From Thermocrinis ruber (GTDB lineage: Bacteria; Aquificota; Aquificia; Aquificales; Aquificaceae), in NCBI RefSeq assembly GCF_000512735.1, contig NZ_CP007028.1, positions 1,054,001-1,118,000 on the forward strand: 64,000 bases of DNA. Reading direction: 5' to 3'. The position numbers were made by a program, and so were the translations under genes. Positions 3,677 to 14,856 of the stretch are shown here, piece by piece. The first letter of the stretch is position 1, and each line of letters begins with the position of its first letter. Below the pieces are notes generated by a model. It saw only the letters and a list, made by a program, of their open reading frames with translations. It did not search any database and was not told the DNA's origin.

Positions 3677-3678
3677 TG

Positions 3679-3752
3679 TGAGCCGGGAGGGATTTGAACC
3701 CTCGACCCACGGATTAAAAGTCCGTTGCTCTACCAGGCTGAGCTACCGGCTC
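3679..3752 (-). tRNA. tRNA-Lys (anticodon UUU)
   Basis: The minus strand folds as a complete cloverleaf. The acceptor stem is GAGCCGG with CCGGCTC, the anticodon stem is CGGAC/GTCCG around loop CTTTTAA (anticodon TTT), and the T-arm contains GGTTCGAATCC. The discriminator base is A and CCA is not encoded. It converges on glmU, leaving only two bases after that gene's stop codon. Confidence 0.96.
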
Positions 3753-4897: not shown

Positions 4898-5503
4898 ATG
4901 CTCAAGATAGCCCTAACTGGCAACATAGGTTCTGGAAAATCCACGGTGGCGGAGTTTTTCAAGGAGTGCGGTTTTTATGTCTTTGATGCAGACCGAATAA
5001 TAAAGGGATTTTATGAAGAGAGGGGAAAGGTGTACGAAGAGGTTCTGAAAGCCTTTGGGAATGAAATATTAGACCAAGGGGGAAACATAAACACAAAAAA
5101 GCTTGCGGACATTGTGTTTGCAGACAGAGAAAAGCTATTGCTTTTGGAAAGGATCACCCACTCTGCCCTTTATGAGCGATTGGAGGAGGAGTTTAAAAAA
5201 CTTCCCGAGCACGCTATAGCAGTGGTGGAGGCATCCTTGGTTCTGGAGAAAAAAACACAAGGCAGGTACGACTTTGTGGTTTTGGTTTATGCACCCTATG
5301 AGATTTGCAAACAGAGGGTCCTCGCCAAAGGTATGTCTTTGGAGGACTTTGAGAGAAGGTGGCAAAAGCAACTTCCACCTGAAGAGAAGCTAAAAAAAGC
5401 CCACTATGTGATAGACAACAGCCAAAGCCTTGAAAGGACAAGGGAGAGGGTCCGTGAGTTGTGTAAAGTCTTTAGGAACCTTGTCCTTTTTCAGAAAGGG
5501 TGA
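4898..5503 (+). CDS. coaE: Dephospho-CoA kinase
   Basis: CoaE phosphorylates the 3'-OH of dephospho-CoA in the last step of coenzyme A synthesis. The P-loop GNIGSGKSTV is at residues 8-17, followed by the CoaE-type DADRI motif and the lid region ERRWQKQLPPEEK. The 201 residues match the family. The 3' end overlaps the convergent ttuA gene by 32 nt. Confidence 0.95.
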   Translation: MLKIALTGNIGSGKSTVAEFFKECGFYVFDADRIIKGFYEERGKVYEEVLKAFGNEILDQGGNINTKKLADIVFADREKLLLLERITHSALYERLEEEFKKLPEHAIAVVEASLVLEKKTQGRYDFVVLVYAPYEICKQRVLAKGMSLEDFERRWQKQLPPEEKLKKAHYVIDNSQSLERTRERVRELCKVFRNLVLFQKG

Positions 5504-6386
5504 GCCTTTGTTTTAGCCTACAAACAGTGCATACGTCCCCAGAGGTGGGCTCACCACAAATGGAGCATGGCTTTAGCTCAAGTTTTTCTTCCCGCCTGAG
5601 AAGGGGCTGAACCTTTCTCAAAAACTCTAAGTAGAACCTAAGCTTGGTGCCGGGGCTCCTTTCCTCTATCTGAGAGAGCAAAAGCTTATACTCAATTGAA
5701 GAGGCACCCACCGAGTAGGGACATTCTTCCTCCACAAAGTCTATACCGGAAAGAAGGGCATACAGGGCACTTTCCTTCTCTGTAATAAGGCACAGTGGTT
5801 TTACCTTTTTCACAAAGCCGTTGCCCTCCTTTAAAACTGGATACTGCCTCCGCAGGTAGCCTAAGTTCCAAGAGAGGACGTTTCCCATGAGGGTGGCGCT
5901 CTCATCGTCCAAGTTGTGCCCTGTGGCGATCACCGAAAAACCAAGCTCTTTGGCGCTCTTGTTCATGTAATACCTTTTGAGATTTCCACACACAGAACAG
6001 GCAGGCCTTTTCTCTATCTCTTTTAGGGTTGGTATATCTTCCACCAAATCCTTGAGCCTTATTACATGCAGGGTCCTTCCTAAGCCCTGGGCAAACTTTT
6101 TAGCTTTTTCCTCCGATAGTTTGGAATACTCTCCTATGCCCAAGTTTATGTAGAGCCCATCCGCTTGGTAGCCGAGCTTATGGAGGGCATGCCAGAGGGA
6201 AAGGCTGTCCTTCCCACCAGATACCGCCACTAAAACCCTATCCTCTTTTGAAAACATTCTAAACTCTCTTATTGTCCTTTCCACCCTCCTTTCGAACCAC
6301 TCAATGTAATGCTCTTTGCACAGGGCAATCCTATGGTGGGGCAAATAAACAACCGCCTTTTGGGAACACTTAGCACACCTTTTCAT
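5472..6386 (-). CDS. ttuA: tRNA 2-thiolation enzyme, TtuA/TtcA family
   Basis: This 304-residue PP-loop ATPase has the SGGKDSLSLWHAL nucleotide motif. It carries zinc-binding Cys pairs at both ends (CAKCSQKAV near the N-terminus, CSICGEPTSGDVCTVC near the C-terminus) and a central ACSVCGNLKRYYM plus EEECPYS, the Cys set that holds a [4Fe-4S] cluster in TtuA. TtuA makes 2-thio-ribothymidine at tRNA position 54, which stabilises tRNA at high temperature, taking sulfur from the thiocarboxylated carrier TtuB. The adjacent gene encodes such a carrier. TtcA (C32 thiolation) is the alternative, but the double zinc fingers favour TtuA. Confidence 0.88.
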   Translation of the reverse strand: MKRCAKCSQKAVVYLPHHRIALCKEHYIEWFERRVERTIREFRMFSKEDRVLVAVSGGKDSLSLWHALHKLGYQADGLYINLGIGEYSKLSEEKAKKFAQGLGRTLHVIRLKDLVEDIPTLKEIEKRPACSVCGNLKRYYMNKSAKELGFSVIATGHNLDDESATLMGNVLSWNLGYLRRQYPVLKEGNGFVKKVKPLCLITEKESALYALLSGIDFVEEECPYSVGASSIEYKLLLSQIEERSPGTKLRFYLEFLRKVQPLLRREEKLELKPCSICGEPTSGDVCTVCRLKQRLTLSEKGQGS

Positions 6387-6404
6387 AAGTTTTTAATCTT
6401 AAAC

Positions 6405-6608
6405 CTACCCTCCCGAAATGGCATTTATCACCCGCACTTGGTCTCCCTCCTTTATGTAAAAGTCCTCCTCCACCACCTCTCCATTGACCACCACAAAGGC
6501 ATACTCCCTTGAAAGGTTCATAGCCTTTAAAAGGTCTTTTGCCTTTACCTTGTCCCCTTCAAACTCCAACTCTAACTCCTTTCCTCTGTACTGAACCCTC
6601 AGTTTCAT
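6405..6608 (-). CDS. ttuB: Ubiquitin-like sulfur carrier (TtuB/ThiS/MoaD fold)
   Basis: The 67-residue protein starts at the ATG ending at 6608; upstream extension would cross a regulatory dyad. It has a beta-grasp pattern and ends in the diagnostic Gly-Gly (VINAISGG), which is adenylated and converted to a thiocarboxylate. It sits 18 nt upstream of ttuA on the same strand, so the pair is best read as a tRNA thiolation operon. Such carriers can also feed thiamine or molybdopterin synthesis. The gene's upstream region is shared with the divergent sigma-54 enhancer. Confidence 0.85.
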   Translation of the reverse strand: MKLRVQYRGKELELEFEGDKVKAKDLLKAMNLSREYAFVVVNGEVVEEDFYIKEGDQVRVINAISGG

Positions 6609-6633
6609 AATGAATATTTTTACCCAAAAGACT

Positions 6634-6660
6634 GTTGCATCATATGTTGCAACATGCAAC
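6634..6660. promoter_or_regulatory. Putative enhancer (UAS) with overlapping dyads
   Basis: This site holds a perfect 12-bp palindrome ATGTTGCAACAT (6644-6655) and an overlapping inverted pair GTTGCAT (6634-6640) / ATGCAAC (6654-6660). It lies about 65-90 bp upstream of the -24 element, the usual distance for a bacterial enhancer-binding protein. A further direct repeat GTACCCTTTT occurs at 6674-6683 and 6715-6724. The likely ligand is the activator encoded at 7911. Confidence 0.6.
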
Positions 6661-6723
6661 GCAATCTAAAAGAGTACCCTTTTAAAAGCCTTGAAAATAA
6701 AGCCTTTTAAAACTGTACCCTTT

Positions 6724-6739
6724 TGGCATCATTTTTGCA
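6724..6739 (+). promoter_or_regulatory. Sigma-54 (-24/-12) promoter
   Basis: TGGCAT-N5-TTGCA, with GG (6725-6726) and GC (6737-6738) exactly one helical turn plus two apart as in RpoN promoters (consensus TGGCAC-N5-TTGCW). It lies about 40 bp before the first DUF2173 gene. Confidence 0.85.
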
Positions 6740-6777
6740 CGTATATTAAGTGAAAAACCTTTAAGGAGGTGTAAGCC

Positions 6778-7119
6778 ATGGCAACACTAAGCAAGCTCAA
6801 AGAGCTTATGTCCATACCCGGCGCTGTTGCAGCTGGGGAATTTGCAGATGATGGTAGGCTGATTGCCTACTACGGCAACATTGATGAGAAGTCTGCCGAG
6901 GTTGCAGCCATGATGTGCGCTGCCAACAAGCTCATGTTCAACATGCAGGCAAAGGGCTGGAGTGCATACACCGGTCAAGGGGGCTTTTACCCTGTATACG
7001 GCTTTGCGGTAGCCGGTGGAAAATACGCCGCCTGCATAATGGGCAATGTGGGTGTTTTTGTGGAGCTTGATAAGGCAGACTTTGACAAAACCTTTGAAGT
7101 ACTGTCCAAATACTTATAA
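6778..7119 (+). CDS. DUF2173 family protein, first copy
   Basis: The 113-residue protein is small, globular and lacks membrane segments. Typical features are GAVAAGEFADDGRLIAYYGN near the start, the MMCAAN motif, and a C-terminal GNVGVFVELD strand. The overall pattern resembles Roadblock/LC7-like folds, but no function is established for the family. The ribosome site AAGGAGGTG is near-perfect, suggesting strong expression. It is the first gene behind the sigma-54 promoter and is followed 15 nt later by a paralogue. Confidence 0.85.
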   Translation: MATLSKLKELMSIPGAVAAGEFADDGRLIAYYGNIDEKSAEVAAMMCAANKLMFNMQAKGWSAYTGQGGFYPVYGFAVAGGKYAACIMGNVGVFVELDKADFDKTFEVLSKYL

Positions 7120-7134
7120 AAGGAGGTGAGAGCC

Positions 7135-7470
7135 ATGGCAGACTTGGACAAACTCATGAGCGTAAAGGGCGTTTGGGCTGCGGGAGAGTTTTCTCCCGAT
7201 GGTAAGCTAATTGCCTACAAGGGCAACATATCCGAAGAGCACGCAGCTATGGCTGCGATGATGTGCGCCGCCAACACACTGATGGCAGAGATGCAAACGC
7301 AGGGCTGGACCGCCCTCTCTGGTCAAGAATGGACACCTCTGATAGGCTGGGCTGTGGCAGGTCCCAAGTATTCGGTTTGCGTGATAGGCAATGTGGGCGT
7401 CTTTGTTAACAACGACGAAGTGTCCTTTAACGAAGTCTTTAAGGTTTTAAGGGAAGTGGCAGGTAAGTAA
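7135..7470 (+). CDS. DUF2173 family protein, second copy
   Basis: This 111-residue paralogue of the preceding gene shares the KLMSV-GV-AAGEF opening, the AAMMCAAN motif and the GNVGVFV ending, so the two arose by tandem duplication. The ATG at 7135 is chosen because AAGGAGGTG sits just upstream with the same spacing as in the first copy; a GTG at 7126 overlaps that site. A hairpin terminator follows 9 bases after the stop. The two proteins could form a heteromer (inference). Confidence 0.85.
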   Translation: MADLDKLMSVKGVWAAGEFSPDGKLIAYKGNISEEHAAMAAMMCAANTLMAEMQTQGWTALSGQEWTPLIGWAVAGPKYSVCVIGNVGVFVNNDEVSFNEVFKVLREVAGK

Positions 7471-7478
7471 AGCCGTAC

Positions 7479-7501
7479 GGGGGCACGCCCGCCCCCTTTT
7501 T
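7479..7501 (+). terminator. Rho-independent terminator inside the sigma-54 operon
   Basis: GGGGGC (7479-7484) pairs with GCCCCC (7491-7496) around a six-base loop and is followed by five T (7497-7501). It lies between the DUF2173 genes and the SCP2-like gene, so it should make the two upstream genes much more abundant than the activator. Confidence 0.8.
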
Positions 7502-7514
7502 AAAGGAGGAGAAA

Positions 7515-7904
7515 ATGCACAAGTTCCTTTCGGAAGATTGGATAAAGGCTTACAAAGAGGAATGGAACAAAAATCAAAAGCTCAAAGAGGAGCTGAAGGA
7601 CTTTTCCGCCAGCATAAAGTATTACATAGAGGGAAAAGAAGGAGACGCAGTCCATCTTATAGTGAAAAACGGGGAGGCTGTTGAGGCAGGAAAGGCGGAC
7701 TCAATGGATTACGACTTTGAACTCTGGGCAAGCTTGGATAACTGGAAAAGGCTCGCCACGGGAGATATGGGACCAAAGGCTGCTCTGCTAACCAAAAGGC
7801 TAAAGTTCAAGGGCTCCATGATCACCGCCATGAAGTATATGTCCGCCTTTGAGGAGAGTTTAAAGATGATGGGTAACATTCCCACCGACTGGGACATAAA
7901 ATAA
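7515..7904 (+). CDS. SCP2 sterol-transfer-like domain protein
   Basis: The 129-residue protein is a single-domain SCP2-like fold, with alternating strands (IKYYIEGKEGDAVHLIVKNGE), the YDFELWASLDNWKRLATGDMGPKAAL stretch split by a typical helix, and the RLKFKGSMITAMKYM ending that is common in bacterial SCP2 proteins. These domains bind lipids or other hydrophobic ligands in the cytoplasm. It has a good GGAGG site, lies after the internal terminator, and is 6 nt upstream of the activator gene. The ligand is unknown; a link to the activator's PAS domains is possible. Confidence 0.75.
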   Translation: MHKFLSEDWIKAYKEEWNKNQKLKEELKDFSASIKYYIEGKEGDAVHLIVKNGEAVEAGKADSMDYDFELWASLDNWKRLATGDMGPKAALLTKRLKFKGSMITAMKYMSAFEESLKMMGNIPTDWDIK

Positions 7905-7910
7905 AACCTG

Positions 7911-9464
7911 ATGGACTTTGAGGTCTTTGAAAACTTTTTTGAGGGGGTCCTTGTCATAGACCAAAAGTTAAGGGTTGTTTATGCAAACCCGTCTGCCAAA
8001 GAGATTTTAGGGGACAAGTTAAAAATAGGGGAAGGGTGCAGGGGGCTCTTTTCTATCTGCGAAAGCTGTCCTGCAAAGTTTGTAAAGGAGGAGGGAGAGG
8101 GTGTTCAGGTTTATGATGTGGAGACTGCCTCTGGCAGGCATGTGTGCTGGAGCATGAGCTTCGTAAAGAATGCCTACTTTGTGGAAACCTTCAGGGATGT
8201 TAGCAATGTGGTCCATTGCATAGTGGAGGCAGAAAGGCAAAGGGCACACAAGGAAGCCATACTCAACTCCATAGTGGAAGCAATACTCGTGGTGGATAAA
8301 GAGGGCTATGTGCTGGAGCACAACAGAATAGCCCATAGGATGCTATGTAGGCAAGAGGAAGAGAGCTTGGTAGGTAAGAACATAAAGGAGCTTATAGAAC
8401 TCTCCTTGGAGGAGCTACCGCCGGAGGGTGAAAGGGCGGATGTTTATGTGGAAACACCCTGCGGAAAGCAGAAGGCTTCTGTGTTGGTGTCCCCCATGAG
8501 CTCCGGCTTTGGGTATGTGGTATCTTTGCATCCCATTCAGGAGGTGCTGAGCTGTACCATCGGGGAAGAAAACGCTATTGTTTTCAAAAGCAAGGCTATG
8601 CAAAAGGTCCTTGAGCTTGCCCAAAGCGTAGCTGAGTACGATACCAACGTGTTAATAGAGGGAGAGACGGGAACGGGTAAAAACCTTCTGGCTAAATACA
8701 TACATTACCTTTCTCCCAGAAGGGACAAACCCTTTGTGAAGATCAACTGCAGTGCAATACCGGAGGGGCTCTTAGAGGCAGAACTTTTTGGCTACGTGAA
8801 GGGCGCATTCACCGGTGCCATAAAGGACAAACCCGGAAAGGTAGAAATGGCAGAGGGAGGAACGCTACTTTTGGATGAAATAGGAGACATGCCCCTGAGC
8901 CTTCAGGCAAAGATCTTGCATTTAGTTCAAGACAAGGAGTTTGAGAGACTCGGAGATACCAAATTTCGCAAAGCCAACGTCCGGATCATAGCCAGCACCA
9001 ACAAAAACCTATGGGAACTGGTTCAAAGGGGCAAATTTAGGGAAGACCTATACTACAGGTTGAGTGTGATAAAAATAACCATTCCACCCCTGAGGGATAG
9101 AAGGGAGGACATTCCCATATTGGTGGAACACTTTCTTCAGAAGTTCTCCAAAAAATACAACAGAAGGATAAAGGGTATCTCCCCCGAGGCAATGAAAATG
9201 CTACTTTCTTATCCCTTTTACGGAAATATAAGGGAGCTGGAGAACATAATAGAGAGGGCGGTTATTACAGCAAAGGGTTCTATGATAAAGGTTGAGAACC
9301 TTCAGTTGGACCACCAGGGTAAGGAAGAAGAGGAAAAGGAGAGGATCAAAAGGGTTTTAGAGCAAGTGGGAGGAAACAAGAGCTTGGCGGCGAAAGTGCT
9401 TGGCATACACCGAACCACTCTCTGGCGTAAGATTAGGGAGTACGGTTTGGAAAATTTGGTATAA
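7911..9464 (+). CDS. Sigma-54-dependent transcriptional activator (PAS-PAS-AAA-HTH)
   Basis: The 517-residue protein starts with two PAS-like domains (about 1-100 and 112-210); the first has a Cys cluster, GCRGLFSICESCPAKF, and may sense redox state or a ligand. The AAA+ domain (about 225-455) carries Walker A GETGTGK (251-257), the sigma-54 contact loop GAFTGA (298-303) and Walker B LLLDEIGD. A Fis-type HTH ends the protein (NKSLAAKVLGIHRTTLWRKI). No receiver domain is present, so it is not a classic response regulator. As the last gene of the operon behind the -24/-12 promoter it probably activates its own operon. Confidence 0.92.
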   Translation: MDFEVFENFFEGVLVIDQKLRVVYANPSAKEILGDKLKIGEGCRGLFSICESCPAKFVKEEGEGVQVYDVETASGRHVCWSMSFVKNAYFVETFRDVSNVVHCIVEAERQRAHKEAILNSIVEAILVVDKEGYVLEHNRIAHRMLCRQEEESLVGKNIKELIELSLEELPPEGERADVYVETPCGKQKASVLVSPMSSGFGYVVSLHPIQEVLSCTIGEENAIVFKSKAMQKVLELAQSVAEYDTNVLIEGETGTGKNLLAKYIHYLSPRRDKPFVKINCSAIPEGLLEAELFGYVKGAFTGAIKDKPGKVEMAEGGTLLLDEIGDMPLSLQAKILHLVQDKEFERLGDTKFRKANVRIIASTNKNLWELVQRGKFREDLYYRLSVIKITIPPLRDRREDIPILVEHFLQKFSKKYNRRIKGISPEAMKMLLSYPFYGNIRELENIIERAVITAKGSMIKVENLQLDHQGKEEEEKERIKRVLEQVGGNKSLAAKVLGIHRTTLWRKIREYGLENLV

Positions 9465-9465
9465 T
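9460..9465 (+). promoter_or_regulatory. -10 box for tRNA-Asn
   Basis: TATAAT overlaps the stop codon of the activator gene and lies 11 bases before the tRNA 5' end. Confidence 0.55.
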
Positions 9466-9476
9466 TTTATACTGCA

Positions 9477-9549
9477 TCCGGGGTAGCTCAACGGGCAGAG
9501 CGGGTGGCTGTTAACCACCAGGTTGGGGGTTCGAGTCCCTCCCCCGGAG
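9477..9549 (+). tRNA. tRNA-Asn (anticodon GUU)
   Basis: A full cloverleaf: acceptor TCCGGGG/CCCCGGA, D-arm GTAGCTCAACGGGCAGAGC, anticodon stem GGTGG/CCACC with loop CTGTTAA (anticodon GTT), T-arm with GGTTCGAGTCC, discriminator G. CCA is not encoded. The minC start lies 12 bases downstream, so tRNA and minCDE may share one transcript. Confidence 0.96.
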
Positions 9550-9561
9550 CATTGAAAAAAA

Positions 9562-10125
9562 ATGATTGAGATAAAGGGCATAACTCTGCCAGTGCTATTG
9601 ATCAGGATCTCCGAGGGGGCTGAGGAATCTGTAGTTTTTGAACAGTTAGAAAAATTACTCAACTCTAAACTCTCTGAGGGTGCCTACTTCTTAGTGGAGG
9701 GGAACTCCCCCTTGGTAAAGAAAGTTGAAGAGTTTTTAACAAAGAAGAACGTAAGGAACATTAAGAAGCTTGAAAAGGCTTTAGAAAAGAGGGCTCCGGA
9801 GCCAAGGCTCTTGGTTATAGAAAAGCATCTCAGGTCGGGGCAAAGGATAGAGCACAATGGGGATGTGTTAGTGCTTGGGAATGTGAATAAGGACGCACAA
9901 GTCGTGGCCACGGGAAACATAATAGTTATGGGTACTCTCAGAGGCATTGCTATAGCTGGAGCTCTCGGAGATGAAAGCGCGGTGGTGGTAGCCTTACGGA
10001 TGGAACCCCAGCAGATAAGAATAGGTAGAAAGATCGCCATATCTAACGAGGAAGAGAGGATATCTCCCGGTTATCCTGAGATTGCGAGAGTGGAAAATGG
10101 TGCTATAATTCTTGAAAGGGTATAA
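9562..10125 (+). CDS. minC: Septum-site inhibitor MinC
   Basis: MinC inhibits FtsZ polymerisation away from mid-cell. The 187-residue protein has a short N-terminal domain and the C-terminal beta-helix that binds MinD (VLVLGNVNKDAQVVATGNII, GTLRGIAIAGALGDESA, the latter including the conserved RG.A.AG pattern). It lacks an obvious ribosome site and begins just after the tRNA, so its mRNA 5' end may be made by tRNA 3' processing. minD follows after 2 nt. Confidence 0.92.
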   Translation: MIEIKGITLPVLLIRISEGAEESVVFEQLEKLLNSKLSEGAYFLVEGNSPLVKKVEEFLTKKNVRNIKKLEKALEKRAPEPRLLVIEKHLRSGQRIEHNGDVLVLGNVNKDAQVVATGNIIVMGTLRGIAIAGALGDESAVVVALRMEPQQIRIGRKIAISNEEERISPGYPEIARVENGAIILERV

Positions 10126-10127
10126 AG

Positions 10128-10919
10128 ATGACAAAGGTTTTTGTGGTTACATCGGGCAAAGGCGGTGTAGGAAAGACAACCATAACCGCCAACCTCTCAG
10201 TAGCCCTTGCAAAAATGGAAAAGAAGGTCCTATGCATTGATGCAGACATAGGACTTAGAAACCTTGACATGATCCTGGGCTTGGAAAACAGGATTGTCTA
10301 TGATGTGCTGGATGTCCTTGAGGGAAGGGTAGATTTTCAAAAGGCTTTGGTCAAGGACAAAAGGGGTTTTAGCCTGTGGCTTTTGCCCGCCAACCAAACC
10401 AAAAACAAGGACGCTGTAGACCCAGAAAAGTGGCTAAAGCTCGTTGAGGATATAAAAAGTTTAGGGCAGTACGATTACATATTCATAGACTCTCCCGCTG
10501 GAATAGAGAGGGGCTTTCAGATCGCATCTTCCCCCGCGGACAGTGCCTTGGTGGTGGTAAATCCTGAAGTATCCTCTGTAAGAGATGCGGATAGGATCAT
10601 AGGACTGTTGGAAAACATGGGAAAGACCGACTACAAGCTGATAATAAACCGGATAAGATGGGACGCAGTGGAAAAGGGTCAAATGCTTTCTGTGGAGGAT
10701 ATAGTGGAAATCCTAAGGGCACCTCTCTTAGGTGTTGTGCCTGAAGAACCAAAGCTTGTGGATTTTACCAACAGAGGAGAACCTATTGTTTTGGAAGACT
10801 ATCCTGCGTCAAGGGCACTCATGGATATAGCAAGGAGAATAGCGGGAGAAGATGTCCCCATGGTATATCATGGACAGAAGAAGGGACTACTTGAAAGGCT
10901 GTTTGGGAGATGGCAATGA
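10128..10919 (+). CDS. minD: Septum-site ATPase MinD
   Basis: The deviant Walker A motif GKGGVGKTT at residues 10-18, the switch region DADIGLRNLDMILG and the DSPAGIERGF Walker B are all MinD signatures. The C-terminus GLLERLFGR is amphipathic and serves as the membrane-targeting helix. MinD recruits MinC to the membrane and its ATPase is stimulated by MinE. The 263 residues are typical, and the gene overlaps minE by 10 nt. Confidence 0.96.
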   Translation: MTKVFVVTSGKGGVGKTTITANLSVALAKMEKKVLCIDADIGLRNLDMILGLENRIVYDVLDVLEGRVDFQKALVKDKRGFSLWLLPANQTKNKDAVDPEKWLKLVEDIKSLGQYDYIFIDSPAGIERGFQIASSPADSALVVVNPEVSSVRDADRIIGLLENMGKTDYKLIINRIRWDAVEKGQMLSVEDIVEILRAPLLGVVPEEPKLVDFTNRGEPIVLEDYPASRALMDIARRIAGEDVPMVYHGQKKGLLERLFGRWQ

Positions 10920-11952: not shown

Positions 11953-13553
11953 TGAAAGTTCTCATCCTTGGCAGTGGTCCAAACCGAATAGGTCAGGGCA
12001 TAGAGTTTGACTATGCCTGCGTTCAAGCCATATTTGCCCTAAGGGAAGAGGGTGTTCAAACGGTTATGGTAAATTGCAACCCGGAGACCGTCTCCACCGA
12101 CTACGATACCGCAGACAGGCTGTATTTTGAGCCCATCGTCCTGGAAAATGTCCTTGAGATAATAAGGAGGGAAAAGCCTGACGGACTTCTGATCCAGTTT
12201 GGGGGACAAACACCCTTAAAGCTTTCCATACCTTTGAGGAACTTAAAAGTTCCCATCTTGGGCACAGACCCAGAGAGCATAGACATAGCAGAAGACAGGG
12301 AAAAGTTCAGGGATCTAATAAACCAACTGGGGTTAAAACAGCCAGAGAGCCTGACTGCAAGAACTAAAGAAGAAGCCCTGAGGCGTGCAAAGGATCTGGG
12401 CTACCCACTACTTGTGCGACCTTCCTATGTGCTCGGAGGCAGGGCCATGAGGATCGTCTATGAAGAGGGGGAGCTAGTTGAGTATTTGCAAGAGGCGGTG
12501 GAGGTTAGCTACCAAAGACCCATCCTTTTGGACAGGTATCTCTCCGACAGCGTGGAGGTGGATGTGGATGCCATCGGGGATGGTGAAGACTTTTTGATAG
12601 GTGCGGTTATGGAGCACATAGAGGAGGCTGGTGTCCATTCGGGAGATAGCGCCGCGTCTATTCCTCCCTACACCCTTGGAAAGGATACGGTGGAGGAGAT
12701 AAAGAGGCAAACCAGACTAATAGCTAAAGCCCTGAAGGTAAAGGGGCTCATCAACCTCCAGTTTGCGGTAAAGGATGGAGAAGTGTATGTGTTGGAGGTT
12801 AATCCGAGGGCTTCTCGCACTGTGCCCTTTGTTAGCAAGAGTATAGGCTATTCTTTGGCAAAGCTTGCTGCCAAGGTGTGCGTGGGAAGAAAACTAAGGG
12901 AACTTGTGCCCGAGGTATTTGAAAGGCTTGAAAAAGGCGATGTCCATTACTGCAGTGATTTCCTGCCAAAGGATTGGAATTACTACACCGTTAAGGAAGT
13001 GGTTTTTCCATGGAACAGATTTCCTGAGGTGGACCCCCTTTTGGGTCCGGAGATGAAGAGCACGGGAGAGGTGATGGGCATAGACAAAAAGTTTGGTCTT
13101 GCCTATTACAAAGCCCAGCTTGCAGCTGGTAGTAGGTTGCCCACAGAGGGCAGAGTTTTCATAAGCGTGGCAGACAGAGACAAGCCCAAAGTGTTTGAGC
13201 TGGCAAAGGGGTTTTTGGACCTTGGTTTTGAGGTACTTGCAACCGCAGGAACCTACAGATTTTTAAAGGAAAGGGGGTTGAATGTTAAGCAGGTTTTAAA
13301 GGTCTCCGAGGGAAGACCAAACATAGTGGATATGATCAAAAACGGAGAGGTACAGGCAGTTATAAACACACCCACCGGCAGAAGGGCGAGGTCTGATGCC
13401 TACCACATCCGCAGGGCGACAGTCCAGCAGGGCATTCCCTACACCACCACCGTAAGAGGAGGCTATGCCATGCTAGAGGCAATAAGGTGCTATTTAGAAC
13501 ACAACAAAAGCCTTGAGGTCTATTCCCTGCAGGAGGTTTTTGGTGAAGCATAG
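11952..13553 (+). CDS. carB: Carbamoyl-phosphate synthase large subunit, C-terminal half (split CarB)
   Basis: The 533 residues align with the second half of the usual ~1070-residue CarB. The protein opens at the second ATP-grasp unit (GSGPNRIGQGIEFDY, PETVSTDYDTADRLYFEP, RPSYVLGGRAMRIVYE) and ends in the methylglyoxal-synthase-like allosteric domain (FISVADRDKPKV through GRRARSDAYHIRRATVQQG). This half phosphorylates carbamate to carbamoyl phosphate for pyrimidines and arginine. The amination half must be encoded elsewhere, as known for Aquifex and Methanocaldococcus. The start is supported by the natural domain boundary and the 1-nt overlap with the HAD gene. Confidence 0.95.
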   Translation: MKVLILGSGPNRIGQGIEFDYACVQAIFALREEGVQTVMVNCNPETVSTDYDTADRLYFEPIVLENVLEIIRREKPDGLLIQFGGQTPLKLSIPLRNLKVPILGTDPESIDIAEDREKFRDLINQLGLKQPESLTARTKEEALRRAKDLGYPLLVRPSYVLGGRAMRIVYEEGELVEYLQEAVEVSYQRPILLDRYLSDSVEVDVDAIGDGEDFLIGAVMEHIEEAGVHSGDSAASIPPYTLGKDTVEEIKRQTRLIAKALKVKGLINLQFAVKDGEVYVLEVNPRASRTVPFVSKSIGYSLAKLAAKVCVGRKLRELVPEVFERLEKGDVHYCSDFLPKDWNYYTVKEVVFPWNRFPEVDPLLGPEMKSTGEVMGIDKKFGLAYYKAQLAAGSRLPTEGRVFISVADRDKPKVFELAKGFLDLGFEVLATAGTYRFLKERGLNVKQVLKVSEGRPNIVDMIKNGEVQAVINTPTGRRARSDAYHIRRATVQQGIPYTTTVRGGYAMLEAIRCYLEHNKSLEVYSLQEVFGEA

Positions 13554-14856
13554 GTATAAACCCTACTCCTATGAGCGTCCCAAAAGACCCCTTTTCTTAA
13601 AACTCATAAGAAGGCTCGCAGTCCTTTCTCTGTTATTTTTGAGCTTCTATGCCCTCCTTATTTCCATTGGTGGAAGACATCAGTTGGAGGGACTGGAGTC
13701 TTTAAAGTTCATCCCAGCGGAGGGGGAGTATAACCTGAAGGTTAAAGAAGGCAAAATAAAATCCGCCAAGCTGTATGTAGAGCAGGAGGGAAAAAGCTAC
13801 AAAGTTTTTGAGGGGAATTTCCCAGATGGGACAGACTCTTTGAAGATGAGCATAAACGCCAAAGCCTTGGGAATAAAGGAGGGAGATGCCAAGGTCAAAC
13901 TATGGGTAAGCGCGGGCTTCCTTAGAGAAAGGGAATACACCATTGACGCAAAGGTAGACCTAACACCACCTTCTCTTGAAATTCTTTCCTATCCTACAAG
14001 CCTAAGGGAAGGTTCCGTGGGCGTTTTGAGGGTAAAAAGCGATGGCGTGGAGGTATCTTTGGAATGGGATGGTAAAAAGGTTTTAATGACCCCAGTTTCT
14101 CCGGAGGGTTATGTTGCCCTTTTCCCAGCTCCTCTAGATGCGGAGAGCATAGACCTACGTATAACTGCCAAAGACCAGGCGGGCAACTCAGCCCAAAGAA
14201 CTTTAAGGATAGCCATCAAAAGGGCAAACTTTAAAAAGGAAAGGATAGACCTAACCGATGACTTTATAAACTCTGTGATCTATCCCCTCTTGGGAGAACA
14301 AGCCAAAGGGTTAGACCCTGTCTCCGCCTTTAAGATGGTAAACGAAGAGTGGAGAAAAAGGGATGTAAATAAGCTCTCTGAGATAACTCAAAAGAGCGAG
14401 CCTGTAAAACTTTGGAAGGGTGCCTTTTTACAGCTACCAAACAGCAAGGTGATTTCAACTTATGGCATTGATAGATTATATTATTACAAGGGACAGCAGG
14501 TTAGCCAAAGCAGGCATATGGGTTACGATTTTGCCTCGGTAGAAAGGGCACCCGTTCCCGCTTCCAACGATGGGGTAGTTGTCTTTGTGGGCACATTGGG
14601 TATATACGGCAACGTGGTTTTGATAGACCACGGGCTTGGGCTCTTTAGCCTTTATGGGCACCTTTCAGAGATTTCAGTCAAGGAAGGACAGTATGTAAAG
14701 AAGGGAGACATTATAGGAAGGACGGGCAGGACTGGGCTTGCCTTGGGGGACCATCTTCACTTTGGCATCGTAGTGCACGGGCAAGAGGTGGACCCTATTT
14801 ACTGGCTTGATCCCAAATGGCTCAAAACTAACATAGACACTGCCTTTGAAAAATGA
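13543..14856 (+). CDS. Membrane-anchored M23 (LytM) metallopeptidase
   Basis: A GTG start at 13543 is preferred because AGGAGG lies six bases upstream. One N-terminal membrane helix (about residues 18-40) anchors a ~230-residue extracytoplasmic region to a C-terminal LytM domain. The zinc ligands are visible: HMGYDF (H...D) and GDHLHFG (HxH). Such enzymes cut peptidoglycan cross-links or, if inactive, activate amidases; this one keeps all metal ligands. It overlaps carB by 11 nt and shares a transcript with minCDE, so a division-linked role is a reasonable inference. Confidence 0.9.
   Translation: MKHRYKPYSYERPKRPLFLKLIRRLAVLSLLFLSFYALLISIGGRHQLEGLESLKFIPAEGEYNLKVKEGKIKSAKLYVEQEGKSYKVFEGNFPDGTDSLKMSINAKALGIKEGDAKVKLWVSAGFLREREYTIDAKVDLTPPSLEILSYPTSLREGSVGVLRVKSDGVEVSLEWDGKKVLMTPVSPEGYVALFPAPLDAESIDLRITAKDQAGNSAQRTLRIAIKRANFKKERIDLTDDFINSVIYPLLGEQAKGLDPVSAFKMVNEEWRKRDVNKLSEITQKSEPVKLWKGAFLQLPNSKVISTYGIDRLYYYKGQQVSQSRHMGYDFASVERAPVPASNDGVVVFVGTLGIYGNVVLIDHGLGLFSLYGHLSEISVKEGQYVKKGDIIGRTGRTGLALGDHLHFGIVVHGQEVDPIYWLDPKWLKTNIDTAFEK

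Follow-up and report, generated by a model that had tools for sequence, protein, structure and literature searches.

Roadblock/LC7 proteins, among them MglB, the Ragulator subunits p14 and MP1, the Streptomyces protein 3kye and the Asgard roadblocks, are known from systems such as the MglA/MglB module, and the conservon described for Streptomyces combines a roadblock protein with a small GTPase, a histidine kinase and an uncharacterised protein (PMC4316618). Among regulators, the sigma-54 activator FisR governs sulfide-oxidation genes and comprises regulatory, AAA+ and DNA-binding domains; cysteines of its regulatory domain are said to matter in Cupriavidus and are absent from Acinetobacter FisR (PMC7315123). 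Here we describe a four-gene operon of Thermocrinis ruber that resembles each of these systems only in part. It lies in a 64,000-nucleotide stretch of contig NZ_CP007028.1 (positions 1,054,001 to 1,118,000, hereafter the window) and encodes two proteins of the family DUF2173 (D1 and D2), an SCP2-family protein and a sigma-54 activator (Table 1). The fold modeled for D2 is that of the Roadblock/LC7 superfamily, but D1 and D2 score below the Robl_LC7 cut-off, are a paralogue pair encoded together with SCP2 and the activator, and have no adjacent GTPase, in contrast to the MglA/MglB module, with which the roadblock-fold protein is held in common. Unlike the conservon, the operon has neither a GTPase nor a kinase among its genes. 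Its activator is like FisR in its domain types, but the candidate sensor is a PAS domain with a C-x6-C-x2-C-x25-C motif, unlike FisR, and whereas FisR controls sqr/pdo genes, there is no sqr/pdo in the operon and its enhancer occurs elsewhere at control rate only.

Within Pfam family DUF2173 (PF09941), D1 and D2 are members far over the cut-off, alongside a Sulfolobaceae gene and tandem gene triplets of proteobacteria. The Sulfolobaceae protein is described as having several transmembrane domains (PMC11323534), which D1 and D2 probably lack. In the 13 proteobacterial triplet loci that were inspected (L047, L048, L151–L159, L162 and L163; L and G numbers denote loci and genomes), the stretches compared contained no gene that could be recognised as an SCP2 or activator homologue, unlike the Aquificota operon. 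Several of these triplets adjoin genes that we take to encode leucyl aminopeptidase-like and YjgP/LptF-type permease-like proteins. The original prediction, made from the letters of the window, had singled out the operon as its best candidate for an undescribed system. In the open-licence literature searched, DUF2173 came up in one paper (PMC11323534), and we found no description of the operon, nothing linking roadblock proteins with sulfur oxidation, and nothing relevant on SCP2 with roadblock proteins or Aquificae.

The comparative analyses indicated that the operon is a real, conserved one-component sigma-54 module that would make a roadblock-fold pair in excess. The prediction had proposed two DUF2173 genes, an SCP2-like gene and a receiver-less PAS activator, preceded by a near-consensus -24/-12 promoter and an upstream dyad, and each of these elements was recovered: the genes by Pfam matches over cut-off, the promoter as an exact match that is conserved in relatives, and the dyad as part of a GTTGC/GCAAC enhancer shared with them. 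Its proposal that no metabolic enzyme is present also stood, as none belongs to the conserved four-gene core by Pfam on the window genes and a comparison of neighbors across loci. The source genome is one contig of 1.52 Mb with one rpoN match, and its sigma-54 activator matches comprise five strong ones and three further weak ones.

The candidate promoter TGGCATCATTTTTGCA fits both forms of the sigma-54 consensus that we applied (GG-N10-GC and TGGCAY-N5-TTGCW), ends 38 bp 5' of the D1 start codon and is the sole exact consensus match within the window. However, matches with no more than one mismatch were at chance level (five found, 4.1 expected), so that a single window site proves little, and we rejected the window-only consensus as proof of a promoter and used conservation in its place. 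A sigma-54 box (score of at least 14 of 16) was present in 40 of 42 homologous regions upstream of D1, whereas 200 shuffled sets gave 1.2 on average and no more than 5. This count of 42 leaves out L126 and L133, in which D1 scored <90, L150 and L045, which belong to other phyla, and the second copy in each of L138 and L139. The letters of the box were 97% conserved across 39 anchored loci, versus 42% for the preceding 110 bp. Its position was mostly ~50–55 bp before the start codon, although the distances are off for some loci (e.g., L049, L056 and L136) in which the scripted start codon was too far downstream. Between the enhancer and the promoter there is also a 25-nt imperfect inverted repeat (6668–6724, 84%), the columns of which are not conserved.

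With respect to the enhancer, each of the 42 regions contained three or more GTTGC/GCAAC half-sites, compared with 0.9 regions on average and 4 at most after shuffling. In the window, the dyad TGTTGCATCAT/ATGTTGCAACA at 6633–6654 is extended to 6664 by an overlapping palindrome, and half-sites are located at -144, -132, -129 and -122 relative to the D1 start. A near-complete dyad, TTGCAACNNNGTTGCAA, was identified in 28 of the 42 regions (shuffles: mean 0.07, maximum 2), and the commonest spacing of GCAAC copies was 11 bp (26 of 44 upstream regions). Half-sites went together with the activator, being present in the Aquificota loci, in L133 and in the proteobacterial genome G200, which has a sigma-54-like box in GC-rich DNA. 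By contrast, neither a strong sigma-54 box nor any half-site was found in the 300 bp upstream of the two Campylobacteria loci (L215 and L045). This co-occurrence is the best non-experimental evidence that the repeats are read by the activator, to which the enhancer appears to belong.

A search of 41 genomes for the dyad with at most one mismatch returned 14 sites in 13 genomes, ten of them at the operon, one at an operon remnant in G020 and three elsewhere. With 11 of the 14 sites thus accounted for by the operon and the remnant, it is probable that the activator acts chiefly on the operon that encodes it, consistent with the self-contained regulon of the original prediction, although the variant site of the window itself was missed. 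A reversed control pattern gave four sites, a rate that the three sites elsewhere match, and we claim no further regulon targets. Overall, the regulation proposed for the operon is well supported by comparative evidence.

The lack of a conserved gene order in related genomes had been named in advance as a finding that would refute the prediction, and the comparison did not refute it. We examined 43 Aquificota loci, each from a different genome; 38 of them had D1-D2-SCP2-activator in collinear order on the same strand, a few with broken reading frames, and the exceptions were L125, L126, L137, L143 and L145. Because the neighbors of the operon vary between genera, this conservation represents more than mere synteny. 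The operon is patchily distributed: a DUF2173 match was present in 56 of 136 Aquificota genomes, and 47 have short DUF2173 genes (a hand count at E <1e-20), of which G073, G074, G078 and G088 were left out of the locus comparisons. The dN/dS ratio (non-synonymous to synonymous substitutions) was ~0.04 for D1, 0.03–0.06 for D1 and D2 versus L050 and L134, and 0.08 for SCP2 versus L050; by this measure D1 and D2 are evolving under purifying selection. At the same time, the operon has decayed in several genomes, and it therefore seems useful yet dispensable. In G020 a perfect enhancer dyad (L168, G020:C30:1798-1814) is directly 5' of a decayed, frameshifted activator remnant, and D1, D2, SCP2 and the PAS part of the activator have all been lost. 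In L145 (G111) SCP2 is internally shortened to ~45 aa, the C-terminus of the activator is partly deleted and the -12 GC is altered; the D1 and D2 frames are still open.

Variants of the locus were also observed. In L126 (G049) D1 and D2 are apparently fused into one short chimeric frame, and the activator of L053 (G009) is a single frame save for one stop just 5' of GAFTGA, which could represent a pseudogene, a sequencing error or recoding. A cytochrome c gene is located between D2 and SCP2 in L058 (8049–8339), a gene of the same cluster is in that position in L138 and a similar gap is present in L141, all three loci being from a single genus, in which only some genomes have the insertion. Immediately 5' of the main triplet, L138 (6466–7584) and L139 (3084–4182) each contain another, divergent copy of D1-D2-SCP2, and for neither copy was a sigma-54 box of its own found. 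Another genome has a second divergent locus (L133, G066:C16) with a D1-like gene, a D2-like gene, a longer activator frame and half-sites upstream, and in L056 another related sigma-54 activator (12555–14084) is encoded downstream, one gene past the operon's own. Outside the Aquificota, L215 (G508) of the Campylobacteria has the D1-D2-SCP2 core with no activator within 12 kb, and the contig of L045 ends after D2. Just downstream of the L215 core, on the opposite strand, are frames that read as cytochrome oxidase subunit-like (5875–8170). The order in G200 is activator-D1-D2-SCP2, with an interrupted SCP2 frame.

The AlphaFold2 model of D2, built from a 66-sequence alignment, had high confidence scores (pLDDT 97.7, pTM 0.89), and its top matches in the PDB were Roadblock/LC7 proteins: 3kye, for which chain C gave a VIA Z of 16.1 and a root-mean-square deviation of 1.8 over 104 residues, Asgard roadblocks, p14 (Z ~14) and MglB (Z ~13.3). 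Sequence identity to D2 was 8–21% among the matches listed, and a PDB sequence search with D2 gave nothing useful. We are confident that the modeled fold of D2 is Roadblock/LC7, and D1 would have a roadblock-like fold by homology to D2. As D1 and D2 (12.9 and 17.6 bits) miss the Pfam cut-off for Robl_LC7 (23 bits), we refer to a roadblock fold in D2 and not to membership of Robl_LC7. Both are unlikely to be transmembrane proteins, and a search of NCBIfam at E 0.1 matched none of D1, D2 and SCP2 to a family. Related proteins (D2 of metagenome-assembled genomes named Thermocrinis and Hydrogenobacter) were 92–94% identical to the window D2.

In the tree of the family, the Aquificota D1 proteins formed one group (85/89), whereas the D2 proteins did not group cleanly. 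Of the two genes at the Campylobacterales locus, one fell with the D1-like and the other with the D2-like sequences. The placement of D1 beside the middle gene of the proteobacterial triplets had weak support (89/57). D1 and D2 are, by this placement, separate lineages retained as a pair, a retention that suggests a D1/D2 heterodimer. Longer DUF2173-like frames of 213–231 aa occur in G097 (L164), G034, G098, G099, G102, G103, G105 and G108–G110. The L164 protein, the one examined, resembles a fusion of two DUF2173 units: its C-terminal half is DUF2173, and its N-terminal half has a weak similarity to the family (hhalign E 8e-4, probability 25%). Plasmid relatives were confined to two Methylocystis plasmids and had an uninformative neighborhood.

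The presence of MglB among the structural matches of the D2 model raises an alternative, that D1 and D2 are regulators, similar to GTPase-activating proteins, of an MglA-type small GTPase encoded elsewhere, and that they tune polarity, motility or another GTPase process. Elsewhere than in the operon, the window genome does encode three small GTPases of the Arf/Ras family (L212–L214; 36–42 bits to Arf versus a cut-off of 22.3), which we read as MglA-like, and MglA groups are reported in Aquificae (PMC4316618). However, no GTPase gene is in the conserved four-gene core, and the operon-free genome G003 also carries such GTPases. In addition, the top Arf-family match listed for each of G015 and G022, both complete genomes with the operon, was a frame of 855–867 aa (E 8e-7 and 2.6e-6), versus a 200-aa frame that reaches 8e-11 in the window genome, although a divergent small GTPase may be among the weaker matches of these two genomes. 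We consider this alternative unlikely and favor D1 and D2 as a scaffold pair that works with the SCP2 protein.

The arrangement of translation signals indicated how the pair might be made in excess. D1 and D2 have the same Shine-Dalgarno sequence, AAGGAGGTG. The start given for D2 in the open reading frame list, GTG at 7126, falls inside its copy, and we therefore prefer the ATG at 7135. No clear Shine-Dalgarno sequence was found upstream of the activator. A terminator-like hairpin followed by TTTTT is situated after D2, and 24 of 40 loci have a similar hairpin at this place (40 shuffled sets: mean 2.4, maximum 8). The hairpin probably attenuates the two downstream genes, SCP2 and the activator. 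From the strength of the Shine-Dalgarno sequences and the presence of the hairpin, DUF2173 protein would be expected to be abundant.

The activator has the characteristics of a sigma-54 enhancer-binding protein (AAA+, PF00158, 234 bits; HTH_8, 56 bits; GAFTGA present), PAS matches at two places and no Pfam receiver match; none of the 25 of 48 NCBIfam matches listed for it reached a curated cut-off. The first PAS domain, PAS-A, was modeled with a pLDDT of 93.5 and has a PAS fold (best Z 12.4). Its four cysteines, C43, C50, C53 and C79, were invariant in all 37 activators that have the region (38 aligned). The fold search listed many PAS domains and did not point to a particular cofactor, and a PDB sequence search with PAS-A gave nothing useful.

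The SCP2 protein is over the Pfam cut-off for its family and had weak PDB matches to a fatty-acid-binding protein, SCP2 proteins and sterol carriers. Both observations are in keeping with a role in membrane-lipid or quinone homeostasis, in which SCP2 would carry the lipid or quinone and D1 and D2 would position it at the membrane. Nevertheless, the ten annotated proteins of the neighbor clusters included no lipid or quinone gene, and the ligands of SCP2 folds are not predictable from sequence. We regard such a role as improbable.

With respect to the signal, relatives of D1 and D2 are common in some sulfur-oxidising microbes, and the operon may have a role in sulfur handling or sensing. In the proteobacterial class searched, DUF2173 was present in 33 of 274 genomes and SoxB over cut-off in 111; SoxB was found in 31 of the 33 genomes with DUF2173 and in 80 of the 241 without (Fisher p 9e-12). 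In a Campylobacteria-type class, DUF2173 was present in only 2 of 200 genomes. In published transcriptome data, elemental sulfur induced a DUF2173 gene 99-fold in A. brierleyi and 32-fold in S. ohwakuensis (PMC11323534). There are precedents for a regulator of this type: FisR itself (PMC7315123) and NreB, a PAS-domain kinase reported as an H2S sensor (PMC9918477). These data suggested that the operon probably responds to sulfur or redox state.

Together, these observations are consistent with a self-regulated one-component sigma-54 operon that senses sulfur or redox state and produces a roadblock scaffold pair together with an SCP2 carrier of hydrophobic ligands, a proposal that we judge to stand at about an even chance. 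The Cys-rich PAS domain of the activator would detect a redox or sulfur signal, and the activator would then bind the GTTGC/GCAAC repeats 5' of the -24 box and open the sigma-54 promoter, as motif conservation and co-occurrence suggest. The polycistronic transcript would give much D1 and D2, and less SCP2 and activator because of the hairpin after D2 and the weak ribosome site of the activator. D1 and D2 would most likely pair as a heterodimeric scaffold and work with SCP2, which may bind a lipid, a quinone or a sulfur species. Based on the association in one class and the one published transcriptome, the three proteins might act in sulfur oxidation or sulfur stress. A more specific form of this proposal, which we put forward as quite unlikely, is that sulfur oxidisers have in their cytoplasm a GTPase-free, Ragulator-like D1/D2 heterodimer that, with SCP2, senses, docks or holds zero-valent sulfur (polysulfide or S8) and is switched on by its own four-Cys PAS activator.

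Several findings weigh against a self-regulated, sulfur-sensing operon. With regard to regulation, the best site lacked the -12 GC or there was no true box in 6 of the 42 upstream regions (L066, L143 and L145–L148), and L137 (G072) has the promoter, the enhancer and three genes but no activator within the 12 kb fetched. The activator frame of G200 is without PAS domains, and the Cys sensor is therefore not universal. The enhancer pattern search recovered 10 of 19 operons and missed the variant enhancer of the window, an incompleteness that weakens the case for a single target in the window genome. With regard to sulfur, the proteobacterial genomes in the SoxB comparison are not independent. 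In the Aquificota, SoxB was present in 38 of the 47 genomes with short DUF2173 genes and 38 of the 89 without (p 2e-5), yet within families compiled by hand it was in 30 of 33 versus 20 of 31 genomes of family f1 (p 0.015) and 8 of 14 versus 18 of 27 of family f3 (p 0.73). We set this link aside as support, since it is mostly between-family structure and hence weak. No SoxB match was found in G022, a complete genome that carries the operon. Lastly, the S. tokodaii DUF2173 gene rose only 2.3-fold, which was not significant, and the Sulfolobaceae protein is described as multi-transmembrane (PMC11323534).

The lack of a SoxB association in family f3 would be expected if the signal were oxygen, NO (nitric oxide), a metal or general redox state, detected by an Fe-S or Zn site at the four cysteines of PAS-A, and if the link to sulfur reflected lifestyle. 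The invariance of these cysteines and the cytochrome c gene inserted in L058 and L138 are compatible with such a signal; against it are the association with SoxB in the proteobacterial class and the strong induction of DUF2173 on elemental sulfur in two archaea (PMC11323534). We view a non-sulfur signal as a possible but tentative alternative to the sulfur- or redox-sensing operon proposed above.

With a conserved promoter and enhancer and a fixed set of partners, DUF2173 becomes a roadblock-fold family the function of which is directly testable. If the link to sulfur is true, the operon would provide sulfur oxidisers with a means of sensing or handling sulfur that is distinct from the known Sox, Hdr and Sqr enzymes, and it would exemplify roadblock proteins that operate with no small GTPase dedicated to them.

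Table 1. Positions in the window of the operon genes and of the signals associated with them.
Feature	Position	Strand	Basis
Putative enhancer (upstream activating sequence), overlapping GTTGC/GCAAC dyads	6633-6664		repeats; half-site conservation
Putative sigma-54 -24/-12 promoter TGGCATCATTTTTGCA	6724-6739	+	exact consensus; GG 6725-6726, GC 6737-6738
Shine-Dalgarno of D1, AAGGAGGTG	6763-6771	+	sequence
D1, DUF2173 protein, 113 aa	6778-7119	+	PF09941 134.2 bits vs cut-off 26.1
Shine-Dalgarno of D2, AAGGAGGTG	7120-7128	+	sequence
D2, DUF2173 protein, 111 aa, predicted Roadblock/LC7 fold	7135-7470	+	PF09941 141.3 bits vs cut-off 26.1
Terminator-like hairpin GGGGGC-acgccc-GCCCCC (7479-7496) + TTTTT	7479-7501	+	sequence
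SCP2-family protein, 129 aa	7515-7904	+	PF02036 62.7 bits vs cut-off 21.3, E 4e-17
Sigma-54 activator, PAS-PAS-AAA+(GAFTGA)-Fis helix-turn-helix, 517 aa	7911-9464	+	Pfam; no receiver match
PAS-A Cys motif C43-x6-C50-x2-C53-x25-C79	8037-8147	+	alignment

An Rfam scan of 5500–10500 had tRNA as its sole match; a tRNA-Asn gene lies immediately 3' of the activator (9477–9550), and a tRNA-Lys gene is on the minus strand at 3678–3752. Divergent from the operon, on the minus strand at 5472–6608, are genes for a TtuA-like 2-thiouridine synthetase and a ThiS-like protein, which among the loci drawn adjoin the operon in those of the same genus only.

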